DNA of 46,493 nucleotides from a virus, in IMG/VR virus record IMGVR_UViG_3300022707_002337, positions 1 to 46,493 of that record; one strand, written 5' to 3'. This document shows, in pieces, positions 2,231-46,493 of the stretch. The notes under the pieces are model-generated. The model saw nothing but the letters and a program-made list of their open reading frames with translations, ran no database searches and was not told the DNA's origin. Position 1 is the first letter of the stretch, and every line of letters begins with the position of its first letter. Both the position numbers and the translations under genes were made by a program.

Positions 2231-2875
2231 TTAAGCACCTCCGACCAGTTTTCTCCACATCTTGCTGACATACCTAGCTTGATGTATCGCATCACCTAAC
2301 GCGTTATGCTCTTTAGCACCCATAACGCCCAATCCCGCAATACTACTTTGATACATATCCAAAATTGTCCTGCAGTCTCTGATATTCCAAAATTTCCAAG
2401 GAATATCAATTTTATCGTCGTCTGACAACTTTATGTTTAACCTTCGATATGCATTTTCTAAAATGCAAATATCAAATGTCGCGCCATTTCCCCAAACTCT
2501 ACAAGCTTTTGGCAACCATGCTGCCAATTCAGCCAGGGCGTCCACAAGGCTTGTCACGCCCGTTAAACACGTTCTTGCGTCATACGATTGTTTATCCCAC
2601 CATTTTTGCGTGTCGGGGTCTATGCGACGATTTTGACACCTCCAAGCTAGCTCTCTATAAAACGCCTCATCGGTTTTTTGTATGACACCGCTCACAGGAT
2701 CAAACATCACAGCTCCGATTGCAACAATCGCAGAATTCGGGGTTGTGCCCATCGTTTCGATATCGATCATGCAATGCCTAAATTTCATTTTAATTTTAAC
2801 GTTAACTTTATCAATAACTTTTAATTTGTATTGCACTTGATACTTTGCCCCTTTAGCTTTAGTTTTTGTTTGCAT
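2231..2875 (-). CDS. DEDDh 3'-5' exonuclease (Rv2179c/ExoVIII-like)
   Basis: Single-strand-specific 3'-5' exonuclease of the DnaQ-like fold. The start is ATG 2875, with GAGGGAG upstream; the longer frame to 2923 lacks a Shine-Dalgarno. Residues 1-30 are a lysine-rich extension. Motif ExoI is MIDIETMG (D38, E40), ExoII lies in GATFDICILE, and ExoIII is the H..LGDA segment near the C-terminus, giving the DEDDh set. The spacing IVAIGAVMFDP with a W-W element (QKWWDKQ) is typical of phage Rv2179c-type exonucleases. It lies directly downstream of the origin-like region and primase-helicase, consistent with a replication or repair role. Confidence 0.85.
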   Translation of the reverse strand: MQTKTKAKGAKYQVQYKLKVIDKVNVKIKMKFRHCMIDIETMGTTPNSAIVAIGAVMFDPVSGVIQKTDEAFYRELAWRCQNRRIDPDTQKWWDKQSYDARTCLTGVTSLVDALAELAAWLPKACRVWGNGATFDICILENAYRRLNIKLSDDDKIDIPWKFWNIRDCRTILDMYQSSIAGLGVMGAKEHNALGDAIHQARYVSKMWRKLVGGA

Positions 2876-3447
2876 TTTTAACTCCCTCTTACAAGTTTTG
2901 AATAAAAAACCACAAAATTTCATTTTTTAAAACTTTATTTTTTAAACCACTTTTTTAGTAACTTTAGTAACTATTTCATCGGAGTTATTAAAGTTACTAA
3001 AAACAGCGTATATACCACCTACATATATAAAAAAATTTATTTACTATTTTTTTATTCTACCTACATTACCCTATAGTACTTATAGTAACTCTAGTAACTG
3101 TGTGCATTACTTACTATTCTGAATGTAAATAAAACCTAAATTTCATTAAAAAAATCTATTTTGGTATTAATAGGTACTCAATTATGTAAACTATTGCCCA
3201 AAAAGATTAAGCTTTGATCAAAATCAAGAGTTACTAAAGTTAAAGGCCATTTTAACTAAAGTAACTATCGTTTAAAAATTGTACAGCGTTTTTTACGAAA
3301 AAAACTCAAAAAAAATAAATAAAAAATAAAAATGAAAAAAAATGAAAATAAGTTAGTGTTCACTAACAAAATAGTTACTAAAGTTAAAACGGGGTTTTAA
3401 GGAAAGTAACTCTCAAAATACATAAAAACTACTCTTTTTTAAAAAAA
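2876..3447. other. candidate replication origin with iteron-like repeats
   Basis: A 572-base gap without a credible gene. It is very AT-rich, with A-tracts at about 3290-3355 and T-rich stretches at about 3030-3060. Variants of AGTTACTAAAGTTA recur in both orientations at about 2956-2973, 2983-3000, 3082-3099, 3229-3244, 3252-3267, 3373-3388 and 3403-3413. Two pairs form imperfect inverted repeats (3229-3267 and 3373-3413). It lies directly downstream of the primase-polymerase/helicase gene and upstream of the exonuclease. Iterated short repeats beside an AT-rich stretch and a replication initiator are the usual form of a phage or plasmid origin. No clear DnaA box was seen. It must also carry the leader of the exonuclease gene. 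Confidence 0.6.
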
Positions 3448-5970
3448 TTAATCGTTTTTGAAAAAATTATCATCAAATTTTTCATCAATTTCGAAATCTT
3501 CGCAGACTTCTGCTGCCAATTTAATCTTGTAAAAGCCGTTTTTATTGCCAGCTAATTTGCCATAATTGAGACCCAACGCTTCTAAATCTGATCTCAATCT
3601 TTGCTTTGTATGCACCCTGATAATCCCGTGTTGAGCGCACCATCTCGTATACCTTATATAGACATTTCCCAGCAGTGTATTGTGTGTGTCATCAATTTGA
3701 ATGCAGTCACGCTTAAACAGAGCAATCGTATTACTCTCGGCAAGCCATGTTTCCTTAGCAATCTCACAAGATAATGGTTCTTTAAAATCCCCGCGTTCTC
3801 GAACGCGCTGTAATCCCTGTAGAGCACGATTAAGCACCCCCGACAACTCAGCATTAATGATCTTATCACCTAGCCCGCGTATCATGTCGCTGTCGTTATG
3901 AAATCCTCTGGAAAACGGAATCACTGCAGCTCTTCGTCGGAATCCCTCGCTTAAATCTTTTGTCTTTGGATATGCATTGGATAACATCGCCACTGTACAC
4001 ACACGGGTAAATCTAAATGCAGGATATCCTTTTGGATTGGCAGTACTTTCGCCATCCTCACTGAGCTTTTTTAGTACACCATCCGGTAATAACATGTTGG
4101 CGTCGAGATCATCATCATAGACCAGCAACTTACCGACAAGATTTGCACTAGCGTGATTGTCGCCACTCTGCCCATTTTTAAATTTATCGATGCTCTCTGG
4201 CAACATTGCATTTTTAAGCAACGCGCAAAGTATCAACATCAATGTCGTTTTGCCATCGCCGCCTGGTCCATTTAACAACCACCATTTCGCGGGCTGTTTG
4301 CGCGGGTATAACACGTAGCCCATAAATTCTTCGAAGTGTCGCACTAAATCTTCGGTGTCTTCAAAATCAGAAAATGTGCCTCTTATGGCTTTGTCAAAAA
4401 TTGGGCATTGGGCATCAGGTTCGTAGTCAGTTTCAATGATTTGTAGTAAGTAACTTTTATAGTGATGCCTTTTTAATTTCACCTCACCCGCATCATTAAT
4501 CCAAAGCTCGCCGTTTTTACAGTTGATAACCGCGTACGGCATTTCCCGCATCCGCAATACATCGTCACATGTCGCTGCTAATCGTCCTATTATAGATAAT
4601 GACTCGTTGACAAGCGTGTCCTCTTTAACATCTATGTCAGTTGAGCATCGCATTTCGTCAAGCGTTTCTGTAATTTTTTGACCCACATATTTTTGATGCA
4701 CAGTGCGCCAAAATTCCCCGTTATACATCCAAAATTGGCCGTTCTCGGCAAACACCAATCCGTTTTTGTTGTGAAATTTGTCAACCAATGTTTTCTCGGC
4801 TAGCTCACGTCCAATATCTAATACTATATGCTCTTTAACTTGCTTGACTACGTCGTTGAGTCTGCCTTTTTGCCAGCCCAGCGTTTTACGTATTGTCTCA
4901 AGCGCCCTGGCCCTGTTAATAGCATCAGTATGCAGTGCTGCCCTGATAGCTTTGATAATATCCTCATCACTTGAGTCAAGTGCTAATGCATCGGCCCGCT
5001 TTGTTGCTATGTTCTCTTTCGGTTCTTTATTTGATGTACTATCTATATAGTCATTAAAATCTTCACTTGCTGTCGCTACTTTGATAGAGCCTCCGTTTTT
5101 CATCACTTCATCGTAAAGGGTCCTATCAGTGATCATAGTTTCTTTTTCGTGCAGTGCGTGCCAAGTCTTACTGACCGCATCGGACCATGTTGCATATTCA
5201 GGATTACCAGCCGACCATGCTATTGCTTCAGAGATTCCAGTGCCACCAGTCGCGTGATGGCTTGCGCAAATAATCTTAAACCAATCCACGTATTCAGCGT
5301 AATCAGTAATAGGTAACTGTGTTAAAAGTCTGTGTAATTGTATGTTAGTGATGGTGCCAGCGGGATTTGTGTTTTTAATTGGCTTGTATTTGAGTATTTT
5401 TAATAATTTTTTTGGTAGTTTGGGTTGTTCACCGAGCGTTGGCGCGAAATCATCCCATTCGTAATAATTGCCATTCGGGTGCTTACTGCCTGCGCAAACT
5501 ATTTGAGTGCCTTTTGTTTTAAATTCGATACCTGGGAATTCTGGGATCTCATGGCGTATGTTTGCACCGGTCGGATGTTTTAAATAATAATGATGTCCTC
5601 CCGATCCTGTTATGACTGTGGGGCAATACTCAGCTAAATCTTTAATACCCAAAAACGACAGCAATTTTTGTAAAGAATTTACACCGTCTTTATAGTTGCG
5701 GGGATCATCATCGATTATTATTTCACCTTCAGGTATGCGATAACCAACGTTATTGCCTTCTTTTACGTATTTAAGTGTATTATTTACATCAATGTTCGCT
5801 ATCGACCAATTTTTGTGAATAGGTGCCTTTCCCATCGGTACAGGTTTGCCGACTTTATTTGTAATAGTTTCGCCAGTTGTGCTTTTCTTAACTTTATTCC
5901 ATTTAAAAAGCGGTATTAAGTCCGCTTTTATGTGTAAGTATGGTTTTAGTTGTTCTTTTTTAACAATCAC
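3448..5970 (-). CDS. primase-polymerase / SF3 helicase (P4 alpha/D5-like)
   Basis: 840 aa replication initiator that combines primer synthesis with DNA unwinding. The N-terminal prim-pol (AEP) domain spans about residues 10-180, with catalytic EIIIDDDPRN (D87, D89), the nucleotide-binding TGSGGHHYYL (H126) and a GIEFKTKGTQIVCAGS strand. A PriCT-like helical segment follows at about 215-300 (GISEAIAWSAGNP), then a D5-N region at about 410-540. The SF3 helicase has Walker A GPGGDGKTT at about 567-575 and Walker B LLVYDDDLD at about 613-621. ATG 5970 is the only plausible start; the gene is preceded by an AT-rich leader. It likely acts at the repeat-rich region just downstream. Length and domain order fit large phage and plasmid primase-helicases. 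Confidence 0.92.
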   Translation of the reverse strand: MIVKKEQLKPYLHIKADLIPLFKWNKVKKSTTGETITNKVGKPVPMGKAPIHKNWSIANIDVNNTLKYVKEGNNVGYRIPEGEIIIDDDPRNYKDGVNSLQKLLSFLGIKDLAEYCPTVITGSGGHHYYLKHPTGANIRHEIPEFPGIEFKTKGTQIVCAGSKHPNGNYYEWDDFAPTLGEQPKLPKKLLKILKYKPIKNTNPAGTITNIQLHRLLTQLPITDYAEYVDWFKIICASHHATGGTGISEAIAWSAGNPEYATWSDAVSKTWHALHEKETMITDRTLYDEVMKNGGSIKVATASEDFNDYIDSTSNKEPKENIATKRADALALDSSDEDIIKAIRAALHTDAINRARALETIRKTLGWQKGRLNDVVKQVKEHIVLDIGRELAEKTLVDKFHNKNGLVFAENGQFWMYNGEFWRTVHQKYVGQKITETLDEMRCSTDIDVKEDTLVNESLSIIGRLAATCDDVLRMREMPYAVINCKNGELWINDAGEVKLKRHHYKSYLLQIIETDYEPDAQCPIFDKAIRGTFSDFEDTEDLVRHFEEFMGYVLYPRKQPAKWWLLNGPGGDGKTTLMLILCALLKNAMLPESIDKFKNGQSGDNHASANLVGKLLVYDDDLDANMLLPDGVLKKLSEDGESTANPKGYPAFRFTRVCTVAMLSNAYPKTKDLSEGFRRRAAVIPFSRGFHNDSDMIRGLGDKIINAELSGVLNRALQGLQRVRERGDFKEPLSCEIAKETWLAESNTIALFKRDCIQIDDTHNTLLGNVYIRYTRWCAQHGIIRVHTKQRLRSDLEALGLNYGKLAGNKNGFYKIKLAAEVCEDFEIDEKFDDNFFKND

Positions 5971-6040
5971 ATTGTTAACCTCTTATAAAATAAACTCTTA
6001 TAAAAAATCAAAATAAAATGAAAATTTAATTTATTTTATT

Positions 6041-6080
6041 AATTTTTATTAAATTTTATTGAATTTTATTGAATTTTATT
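6041..6080 (+). repeat. AT-rich decamer tandem repeat
   Basis: Four adjacent copies of a GAATTTTATT-like 10-base unit lie between the repressor-like gene and the primase-helicase. On the minus strand they form part of the primase-helicase leader. The unit could ease strand opening or simply be a slippage product. Confidence 0.7.
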
Positions 6081-6081
6081 A

Positions 6082-6315
6082 CTAAAATTTATCCGGTCGT
6101 AAGTCTTTCGCTTTAAAGAATTTACCCAATGTTTCATGTTTTTCAACCATCCTTGCGCCGGCAGGGCTGATTTGTTTTCGCACTTCCCAACCGTGTACTT
6201 TCGAATATTCGAGGTCGAGCATTTTAGATAAGTGATTGATTCCACCTGCTTTTTCTATCAGCAAAGTTAATTGTTCCAACTTTGCTAGGTTTAATTCTTC
6301 TAACAATAATTTCAT
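6082..6315 (-). CDS. YdaS/Cro-like transcriptional regulator
   Basis: 77 aa helix-turn-helix protein. Residues about 16-55 show the Cro/YdaS pattern: LIEKAGGINHLSKMLDL, then YSKVHGWEVRKQISPAGA, ending in the characteristic LRPD near the C-terminus. Start ATG 6315 follows GGGAG at a spacing of 9. It is the first gene of the leftward arm and diverges from the rightward early genes across a 235-base region holding repeated operator-like motifs. It probably binds there and sets the balance between the two arms. YdaS proteins are called antitoxins in some annotations, but no toxin partner is visible here. Confidence 0.75.
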   Translation of the reverse strand: MKLLLEELNLAKLEQLTLLIEKAGGINHLSKMLDLEYSKVHGWEVRKQISPAGARMVEKHETLGKFFKAKDLRPDKF

Positions 6316-6380
6316 TTCTTACAACTCCCATATGTGAGCTATTAAATATAGTTAGTTTTATAGTATAAAGCAAGTCATAA

Positions 6381-6464
6381 ATAAAGTTAGAATTTAATTT
6401 ACTATTTAATTCGAATATTATTTATAATATAGTTAAAATTTAATTCGAATAAAGTTAGAATTTA
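6381..6464. promoter_or_regulatory. iterated operator-like motifs in the divergent control region
   Basis: Three copies of AGTTA(G/A)AATTTA lie at 6385-6396, 6431-6442 and 6453-6464. Two copies of TTTAATTCGAATA, with an ATTCGAAT palindromic core, lie at 6405-6417 and 6439-6451. The longer 16-mer ATAAAGTTAGAATTTA is exact at 6381-6396 and 6449-6464. They sit between the leftward regulator gene and the first rightward gene, the expected place for Cro/CI-type operators. No strong consensus sigma70 promoter was identified; TATACT at 6488-6493 is a possible rightward -10. Confidence 0.6.
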
Positions 6465-12766: not shown

Positions 12767-12767
12767 T

Positions 12768-12869
12768 ATGATGGGAATACGACGAAAAGATATACCATTA
12801 TTGATACTTATGATAGTCATTGGCGCGGGGGTTCCGTTTATATTGATCGCGCATCTTTTGGGAATATAA
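12768..12869 (+). CDS. single-span membrane microprotein, 33 aa
   Basis: ATG 12768 lies immediately after the previous stop. A basic start (MMGIRRKD) is followed by one hydrophobic span (IPLLILMIVIGAGVPFILIA) to the C-terminus. No clear Shine-Dalgarno is present, so it may rely on re-initiation. Short length keeps confidence low, but its position in a tight chain of similar genes supports it. Confidence 0.45.
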   Translation: MMGIRRKDIPLLILMIVIGAGVPFILIAHLLGI

Positions 12870-12872
12870 ATT

Positions 12873-13010
12873 ATGAAATCAAATGATGACGAAATTGGAC
12901 CAAGTAGCTTGCTTGTACTGCATTTACTGTTTGTAGCAGTAATGATTGAAGCGTTAATTGTGATGGACATGATAATTTTAACGGTAGGTAGCGCGTTGGG
13001 AATAATATGA
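12873..13010 (+). CDS. single-span membrane microprotein, 45 aa
   Basis: Starts three bases after the previous stop. An acidic N-terminus (MKSNDDEIGP) precedes a long hydrophobic segment (LLVLHLLFVAVMIEALIV) reaching to the end. The TGA overlaps the next ATG (ATGA). Charge distribution is opposite to the preceding microprotein, so they could pair in the membrane; this is inference. Confidence 0.45.
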   Translation: MKSNDDEIGPSSLLVLHLLFVAVMIEALIVMDMIILTVGSALGII

Positions 13011-13147
13011 AAAAATTTAAAGGAACATTTTGGGGTGATGAGTTAAACATATTTGATAAAATATCCAATATAACAGTAGCGGTTATTGTAACTCTGGGGT
13101 GTATTATAATCGCACAACTTATAGCAGCCCAGCCATTATTTGCATGA
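13007..13147 (+). CDS. single-span membrane microprotein, 46 aa
   Basis: ATG overlaps the previous stop. The first 22 residues are polar (MKKFKGTFWGDELNIFDKI), followed by a transmembrane segment of about 20 residues (ITVAVIVTLGCIIIAQLIAA). A possible in-membrane Cys is present. Function unknown. Confidence 0.45.
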   Translation: MKKFKGTFWGDELNIFDKISNITVAVIVTLGCIIIAQLIAAQPLFA

Positions 13148-13193
13148 ATATAGCATTTATTATAATTGGATGTAAAACGGTGTAATATAAATT

Positions 13194-45610: not shown

Positions 45611-46381
45611 TTAATCAACCTCCTCTAATTTGCTAGTTTCAGACAAACCTTTTTTCAACACGTTAGTTTTAATAACAGTTTCTTTCGTTTTCTTTAAAAT
45701 TTTTCCTATGCCAGTCCTTATCAACTCTTCGCACTCTATTGTCGCATCCGACCCCTCACTTTCAATTAACGCCACAATTTCTTTTATCACAGCCGAGGGA
45801 AAACCCGTCACTAATCGTTTGTATGCAACGTCAATTAATGCTAAAACAGACTTGAACACTAACTCCCTGTCTATTAAAGTGCCCCTTTGCTCTTGTATTT
45901 TTAAATCTCTAAAATTATAATCAGCAATGCCCTTAAGCGAATCTACAAAACGTTTAAAACCATCAATTGATCCGTATCTCATTACAACCTGTTTAATTGT
46001 TAAATCTTCGATATCTTCTATTGTAAAATCGTCATTTATTGAAATAGACATTGATGTGAGGTCTTTATCAGCGTCAACATAGACTTCCTTAGATTTTTTC
46101 AGTGCCTTACTTAATTTTTTAGGTTTTTTATTAGACGTACCTACATCTATCAAGTGATCTTCCTTGGTTTTTTCTGCTAAGTACGCGACCACAATATGAT
46201 GCGCCGCATTTATTTTTTTACCGACCACGGCATCAGCTAACGCGTTATCAGCAGCTTGAGTTATTGCACCCATTGTGACACCCGCACGCAAAGACAATTC
46301 TTTTCTTGTGATCAATTCTAATTTTATTTTTTTCACAGTTTTGATTTTTTTCACAGTTTTCATTTTTTTCACAGTTTTCAT
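45611..46381 (-). CDS. terminase small subunit (Nu1-like)
   Basis: 256 aa DNA-recognition subunit. The N-terminal winged-helix part LITRKELSLRAGVTMGAIT, then VGKKINAAHHIVVAYL (about residues 23-75), follows the Nu1/gpNu1 pattern. Further regions are helical, with a Lys-rich linker KKPKKLSKALKKSKE. The first 18 residues are three tandem copies of a KTVKK unit from an 18-base DNA repeat. ATG 46381 follows ACGGAG; ATG 46363 is the repeated alternative. First gene of the late operon. Confidence 0.85.
   Translation of the reverse strand: MKTVKKMKTVKKIKTVKKIKLELITRKELSLRAGVTMGAITQAADNALADAVVGKKINAAHHIVVAYLAEKTKEDHLIDVGTSNKKPKKLSKALKKSKEVYVDADKDLTSMSISINDDFTIEDIEDLTIKQVVMRYGSIDGFKRFVDSLKGIADYNFRDLKIQEQRGTLIDRELVFKSVLALIDVAYKRLVTGFPSAVIKEIVALIESEGSDATIECEELIRTGIGKILKKTKETVIKTNVLKKGLSETSKLEEVD
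45655..45701 (+). repeat. 47-bp inverted repeat partner inside the small terminase gene
   Basis: This segment is the exact reverse complement of the last 47 bases of the window (46447-46493). Here it encodes the C-terminal KKTKETVIKTNVL region of the small terminase. Confidence 0.95.
46328..46381 (-). repeat. 18-bp tandem repeat at the start of the small terminase gene
   Basis: Three copies of an 18-base, six-codon unit encoding (M/I)KTVKK, including the start codon. Repeat contraction or expansion would keep frame and start, only changing the length of a basic N-terminal tail placed before the DNA-binding domain. Confidence 0.9.
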
Positions 46382-46446: not shown

Positions 46447-46493
46447 AATTTTAAAGAAAACGAAAGAAACTGTTATTAAAACTAACGTGTTGA
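46447..46493 (+). repeat. 47-bp inverted repeat at the right end of the window
   Basis: Exact reverse complement of 45655-45701. It starts at 46447 and reaches the very last base, so its end coincides with the sequence end. Bases 46382-46446 between it and the small terminase gene hold no gene. This could be a true inverted repeat or an artefact from assembly. Confidence 0.95.

Follow-up and report, generated by a model that had tools for sequence, protein, structure and literature searches.

For most tailed phages the replication origin is unknown, and sequence conservation fails to reveal such origins because the letters of their repeats change. The locus described here raises the question of whether a repeat-filled gap next to a prim-pol/SF3 helicase gene is an origin of this kind, and of which protein would bind it. 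The window (the whole stretch of DNA analysed, an IMG/VR virus record of 46,493 bases) carries late genes for terminase, portal, protease, capsid, sheath, tape measure and baseplate, and is, judged by these genes, a full-size contractile-tailed phage. We consider it very probable that this gap serves the phage as its replication origin, to which the phage's own prim-pol/SF3 helicase would bind in cis through its C-terminal winged helix. The basis of this reading is computed, and comprises the repeats, their grammar, their conservation 3' of the initiator gene, and predicted folds.

Repeat sites and easily melted DNA in the gap

The gap (2924-3447) extends from the prim-pol stop codon to the exonuclease start codon, and comprises 524 bp with 77% A+T. 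As the sequence-only reading had it, the gap adjoins the prim-pol/helicase gene (3448-5970), on the 3' side, that gene being on the minus strand; it also lies directly 5' of the exonuclease gene (2231-2923, minus strand). The same reading had called it the only long gene-free gap; it is the longest, but not the only one, a gap of 427 bp at 12767-13193 coming next.

At least seven iteron-like repeats in both orientations had been noted, and we find seven AGTTACT-type sites, A to G, among them the inverted pairs A/B, D/E and F/G. Pair A (2957-2972, minus strand, AGTTACTAAAGTTACT) consists of two AGTTACT units, and pair B (2983-2998, plus strand, AGTTATTAAAGTTACT) is inverted relative to A, with 10 nt between the arms. 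Array C (3075-3099, minus strand) comprises two exact AGTTACT units (3084-3099) and, 9 bp beyond them, a degenerate third unit. The unit-to-unit spacing inside A, B and C is 9 bp. Pair D (3229-3242, plus strand, AGTTACTAAAGTTA) is faced by pair E (3253-3266, minus strand, AGTTACTTTAGTTA), and this module is duplicated as F/G, in which F (3373-3386, plus strand) is a copy of D 144 bp away, and G (3398-3411, minus strand), an imperfect copy of E 145 bp away, faces F.

The repeats are concentrated in the gap. AGTTACT occurs ten times in the 46.5-kb window, nine of them inside the 524 bp, and no 7-mer was counted more than 6 times when the gap was dinucleotide-shuffled (0/2000 shuffles reaching the observed 9). 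All six sites in the window that match AGTTACTAAAGTTA at 12 or more of 14 positions lie in the gap, as do 10 of the 16 matches to AGTTACTNNAGTTA with up to two mismatches, for which 5.1 matches are expected from whole-window shuffles (maximum 12 in 100). Two stretches of easily melted DNA, at 3019-3098 and, as A/T-tract DNA between modules D/E and F/G, at 3308-3387, rank among the window's six weakest 80-bp duplex segments, and are candidate unwinding elements.

Composition gave no marker of its own. The whole-genome skew turns near 5-6 kb but is uninformative on the origin because it tracks gene direction, and GC skew was rejected as an origin marker on that ground; third-position skew per gene was too noisy. 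Five scattered matches to DnaA boxes were found in the window, none of them in the gap.

The initiator and its predicted origin-binding domain

The initiator gene (3448-5970, minus strand) encodes 840 residues, arranged as Prim-Pol (PF09250), PriCT_2, a D5_N/DUF5906 SF3 helicase and a C-terminal winged helix, and the primase part has the pRN1 prim-pol fold in the structure match. The full-length model (mean pLDDT 79) is matched by the SaPI5 primase-helicase (SaPI5 Rep; 7ola, Z 26.5; 7om0, Z 25.8, aligned to residue 822), the closest solved helicase, by the C-terminal region (CTR) of NrS-1 (Z 18), and by the pRN1 prim-pol (Z 13.8). Folded alone, the C-terminal 144 residues match the P4 origin-binding domain 1ka8 with a Z of 8.9 (rmsd 2.3, 77 of 100 residues), as against 6.3 or less for unrelated rows; the RFX winged helix and the C-terminal domain of ASFV PrimPol are also matched. 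The prim-pol C-terminus is thus predicted to fold like the P4 origin-binding domain, and the predicted origin-binding winged helix itself (residues 745-824) is encoded at 3499-3738, on the minus strand.

Binding, melting, priming and two-way forks are steps that we infer. The C-terminal winged helix would bind the AGTTACT half-sites, in tandem pairs 9 bp apart. On the facing pairs D/E and F/G, and on the inverted A/B, two initiator assemblies would be able to load pointing in opposite directions. The A/T-rich DNA that separates or adjoins these pairs would be melted by the SF3 helicase. The first primers would come from the N-terminal prim-pol, and could be taken up by the DNA polymerase, SSB and SNF2-type helicase that the phage itself encodes.

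Position and spacing of the repeats in other genomes

Seven contigs encode prim-pols about 50% identical to that of the window, and relatives at this distance also have repeats there, on the 3' side of the gene, spelled in different letters: GTTAAGAAGGTTA in L006, GGTTAAATGGTTA in L007, L010 and L011, and GTAACTAATGTAAC in L012. Among further relatives, L014 has GATAACTTT in threes, as (GATAACTTT)n, L015 has GTAACTTTTGTAACATTTGTAAC, and in L040, a GC-rich Sphingomonadales genome, GGCGGTCAGGGCGGTCAGGGC faces GCCCTGACCGCCTCGACCGCCC. Thus the letters drift, and the position, the spacing (9 bp, sometimes 8) and the facing orientation persist. An exact search of IMG/VR for a facing pair of the window's own half-sites returned no match, which fits a fast turnover of the repeat letters. 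In L023, a full-length relative, no repeats were found in the 149 nt between the gene and the contig end, so that either the origin is absent there or the contig stops too early. In L022 the prim-pol frame ends prematurely (around 3279-3700), and what follows the stop resembles the missing C-terminus, which suggests a frameshift or an assembly error.

The spacing is also seen when no motif is given. We took the 450 nt on the 3' side of the gene and counted 7-mer self-matches separately for every lag between 4 and 40. Twelve close loci gave 21 matches at lag 9, versus 0.7 in shuffles (0/200), and none in the sequence 5' of the gene; 14 remote loci gave 9, versus 0.4 in shuffles, and 8 on the 5' side as well. 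In an independent survey, 398 genomes were searched with phrog_1156 and 29 loci were taken as they came; the 650 nt 3' of the gene gave 39 matches at lag 9, versus 1.7 in shuffles (maximum 6) and an average of 3.4 at the other lags on that side, with one match at lag 9 inside the gene and five upstream. Lag 9 is present 3' of the gene in 15 of the 29 survey loci, and the signal is missing there in the other 14, as it is 3' of the gene in several phages (L052, L053, L059, L060 and L062) in which the next gene abuts the primase gene; for these reasons the 9-bp rule is common, not universal.

With a looser word, facing copies are found in 39 loci, and the intervening DNA is A+T-richer than the locus in 35 of them, with a median excess of 0.11. 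The AT content between arrays is 77%, as against 62%. The named phages Mallos, AAT-1, PaMx74 and ZQG1 have the 9-bp layout, AchV4 has the same layout at 8 bp, and QDWS359 reads as 9 bp by eye and as lag 8 in the count. The satellite phage Javan397 has a weak spacing of 8 to 11 bp, and pRN2 and pDL10 look 9-bp-like by eye, with no lag-9 matches in the count.

Known replicons and competing explanations

The reading as a candidate replication origin gains from characterised origins of self-loading SF3 initiators, with which position, repeat grammar and initiator type agree, and from the relatives, in which the layout is kept though the repeat letters differ. In PICI origins, which are located 3' of rep, two iteron sets enclose an AT-rich core (PMC6092414), and the repeats bound by SaPI Rep and SCCmec Cch2 begin shortly beyond the 3' ends of the respective genes (PMC7581432). 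The window likewise has iteron sets that flank an AT-rich region and lie immediately 3' of the prim-pol gene. However, the window is a full contractile-tailed phage and not a satellite, and classification as a PICI element was rejected in view of its terminase, portal, capsid, sheath, tape measure and baseplate genes; it would be an exception to the statement that the PICI organisation is shared by no other known bacterial replicon (PMC6092414).

The crr region of P4 resembles the gap in lying directly 3' of the initiator gene alpha, in repeats 9 bp apart (the type 1 repeats, which alpha binds, are annotated from 4314 and 4323) and in facing copies, in a module that is present twice (120-bp repeats 180 bp apart in P4, copies 144 bp apart in the window). 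P4 alpha has a C-terminal winged helix of the same fold as that predicted in the window. The P4 repeat is TGTTCACC-like, unlike that of the window, and P4 has a second repeat cluster at ori (9.1-9.8 kb), whereas the window, which may be an incomplete contig, has one cluster only. P4 alpha has a Toprim-type primase (PMC4234260), as opposed to the archaeo-eukaryotic prim-pol of the window, and the window initiator, being without a Toprim primase domain, is not filed as a P4 alpha. The best reading is an origin of the PICI/P4-crr kind in a full-size contractile-tailed phage.

With its archaeo-eukaryotic primase, SF3 helicase and C-terminal winged helix, the window initiator has the protein architecture of the pRN1/BIP-1 type. 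The pRN1 family (orf904) shares with the window this combination of domains, a small DNA-binding gene 5', and a cis region 3' of the gene; pRN1 has pRN1_helical where the window has PriCT_2. The origin of this archaeal plasmid was mapped by deletion and relocation to a 100-nt stem-loop 3' of the prim-pol/helicase gene, and replication requires the intact stem (PMC4234260). Its arms have one pair each and are described as a stem-loop, not as iterons, unlike the window's sites. The arms read TGTCCATAGTGTCCAAC, and contain two units, TGTCCATAG/TGTCCAAC, 9 bp apart and facing. The Bordetella phage BPP-1 is nearly identical to BIP-1, whose primase, bbp29, has the same domain order as the window initiator; a repeat search in BIP-1 found none that was origin-like, and a stem-loop was proposed as the putative origin (PMC4234260). 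In BPP-1 we find TTTGCCTCGTTTGCCTCGTTTC facing GAAACGAGGCAAACGAGGCAAGC about 470-580 nt 3' of the gene, with lag 9 by far the strongest; this distance, about 470 nt past the stop codon, differs from the window. NrS-1 also combines prim-pol and SF3 domains, and its prim-pol primes on the template TTTGGTTA (PMC8718748), a word without an exact match in the window; it is close to the GGTTA half-sites of L007, L010 and L011, a likeness that may be chance, the recognition being of a single-stranded template.

These cases bear on the explanation that the cruciform or stem-loop itself is the signal, as proposed for pRN1 and BIP-1, in place of protein-binding iterons, which we regard as unlikely. The inverted arms are strong (A/B, 21 nt, 95% complementary, with a 10-nt loop; A and F, 18 nt, perfect, 392 nt apart), and the stem requirement of pRN1 points the same way. 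Yet the inverted arms of the window are several, redundant and far apart, and L012, L015, L022 and L030 have tandem 9-bp units without an inverted partner. Moreover, since the pRN1 arms themselves hold 9-bp tandem units, mutations of the symmetry would also hit binding sites, and the stem-loop and iteron ideas may both be partly true.

A second candidate binder of the repeats is the product of a conserved small HTH gene (6082-6315, minus strand), which, in the window and its close relatives, immediately precedes the initiator gene on the 5' side and is YdaS-like. That the sites are operators through which this protein regulates the exonuclease operon, with replication starting elsewhere, is improbable, even though the gap immediately precedes the exonuclease gene: an autoregulator would be expected to have operators 5' of its own gene, and no AGTTACT is present in that region of the HTH gene, and the same spacing occurs in the proven replication cis regions of P4 (crr) and pRN1. 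In other clades the small gene is HTH_17-like (L040, L042) or, by eye, ribbon-helix-helix-like (L055, L057, L030), yet the 9-bp repeats stay 3' of the prim-pol gene. Because the small protein changes fold while the repeats stay, the initiator is, on this comparison of genomes, the more likely of the two to bind them. For the small protein the probable role is control of expression or of copy number, resembling that annotated for ORF56 of pRN1.

The expression signals of the exonuclease operon must also sit in the gap, and the repeats could serve those too, which counts against the origin reading. It is nevertheless very improbable that they are promoter or terminator repeats of that operon with no role in replication, as sites resembling promoters or terminators are about as frequent in the surroundings as chance would give, and relatives differ in the downstream gene but keep the repeats on the 3' side of the initiator. 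An attP with integrase arm sites, or a partition site, is scarcely credible: such sites are also short repeats in both orientations, and P4 has arm repeats beside crr, but the large ORFs scanned include no integrase or partition protein, and the repeats track the prim-pol gene across genomes.

Returning to the origin bound by its own initiator, we lean, with less assurance, towards a wider statement: self-loading D5-type SF3 initiators of archaeal plasmids, P4, PICIs and full-size phages would share one origin grammar, in which the initiator gene is followed on its 3' side by meltable DNA, enclosed by facing sets of half-sites about 9 bp apart, and the letters turn over freely. The 'stem-loop' origins of pRN1 and BIP-1 would then be iteron origins read as hairpins, and hundreds of phage origins would be predictable from spacing alone. 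The shared grammar appears to be new, in that we found no earlier statement of it, older subscription literature on P4 and SaPI origins aside. The 9-bp spacing across P4, pRN1, BPP-1 and many prim-pol phages looks like a more valuable result than the single origin; it offers a quick origin predictor, and questions the published views that the layout is confined to PICIs and that origins of the BIP-1/pRN1 type are stem-loops without iterons.

Several minor features were observed along the way. Between the prim-pol and HTH genes, 6012-6091 is very A/T-rich, with 10-bp tandem units TTTTATTGAA, and is the window's second weakest duplex stretch; it is a candidate for curved DNA or for a second unwinding element. 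At 6377-6456, 5' of the YdaS-like gene, repeated ATAAAGTTAGAATTTA / ATTTAATTCGAATA words, which differ from the iterons, are likely to be operators in a switch region. The contig ends with 47 bases (46447-46493) that are the exact reverse complement of 45655-45701, 800 bp upstream within the last gene; this is probably an artefact of assembly at the contig end, and possibly an inversion boundary. In the middle of the gap (3060-3079, minus strand), on the initiator's strand, lies an (AT)AGGGTA(A)TGTA element that is common to the window, L007, L009, L010, L006, L013 and L051. AGGGTA, picked after looking, occurs between the arrays in 8 of 12 loci, versus a shuffle mean of 2.3 and a maximum of 6, and the shared element is a lead only, towards a possible priming or promoter element.
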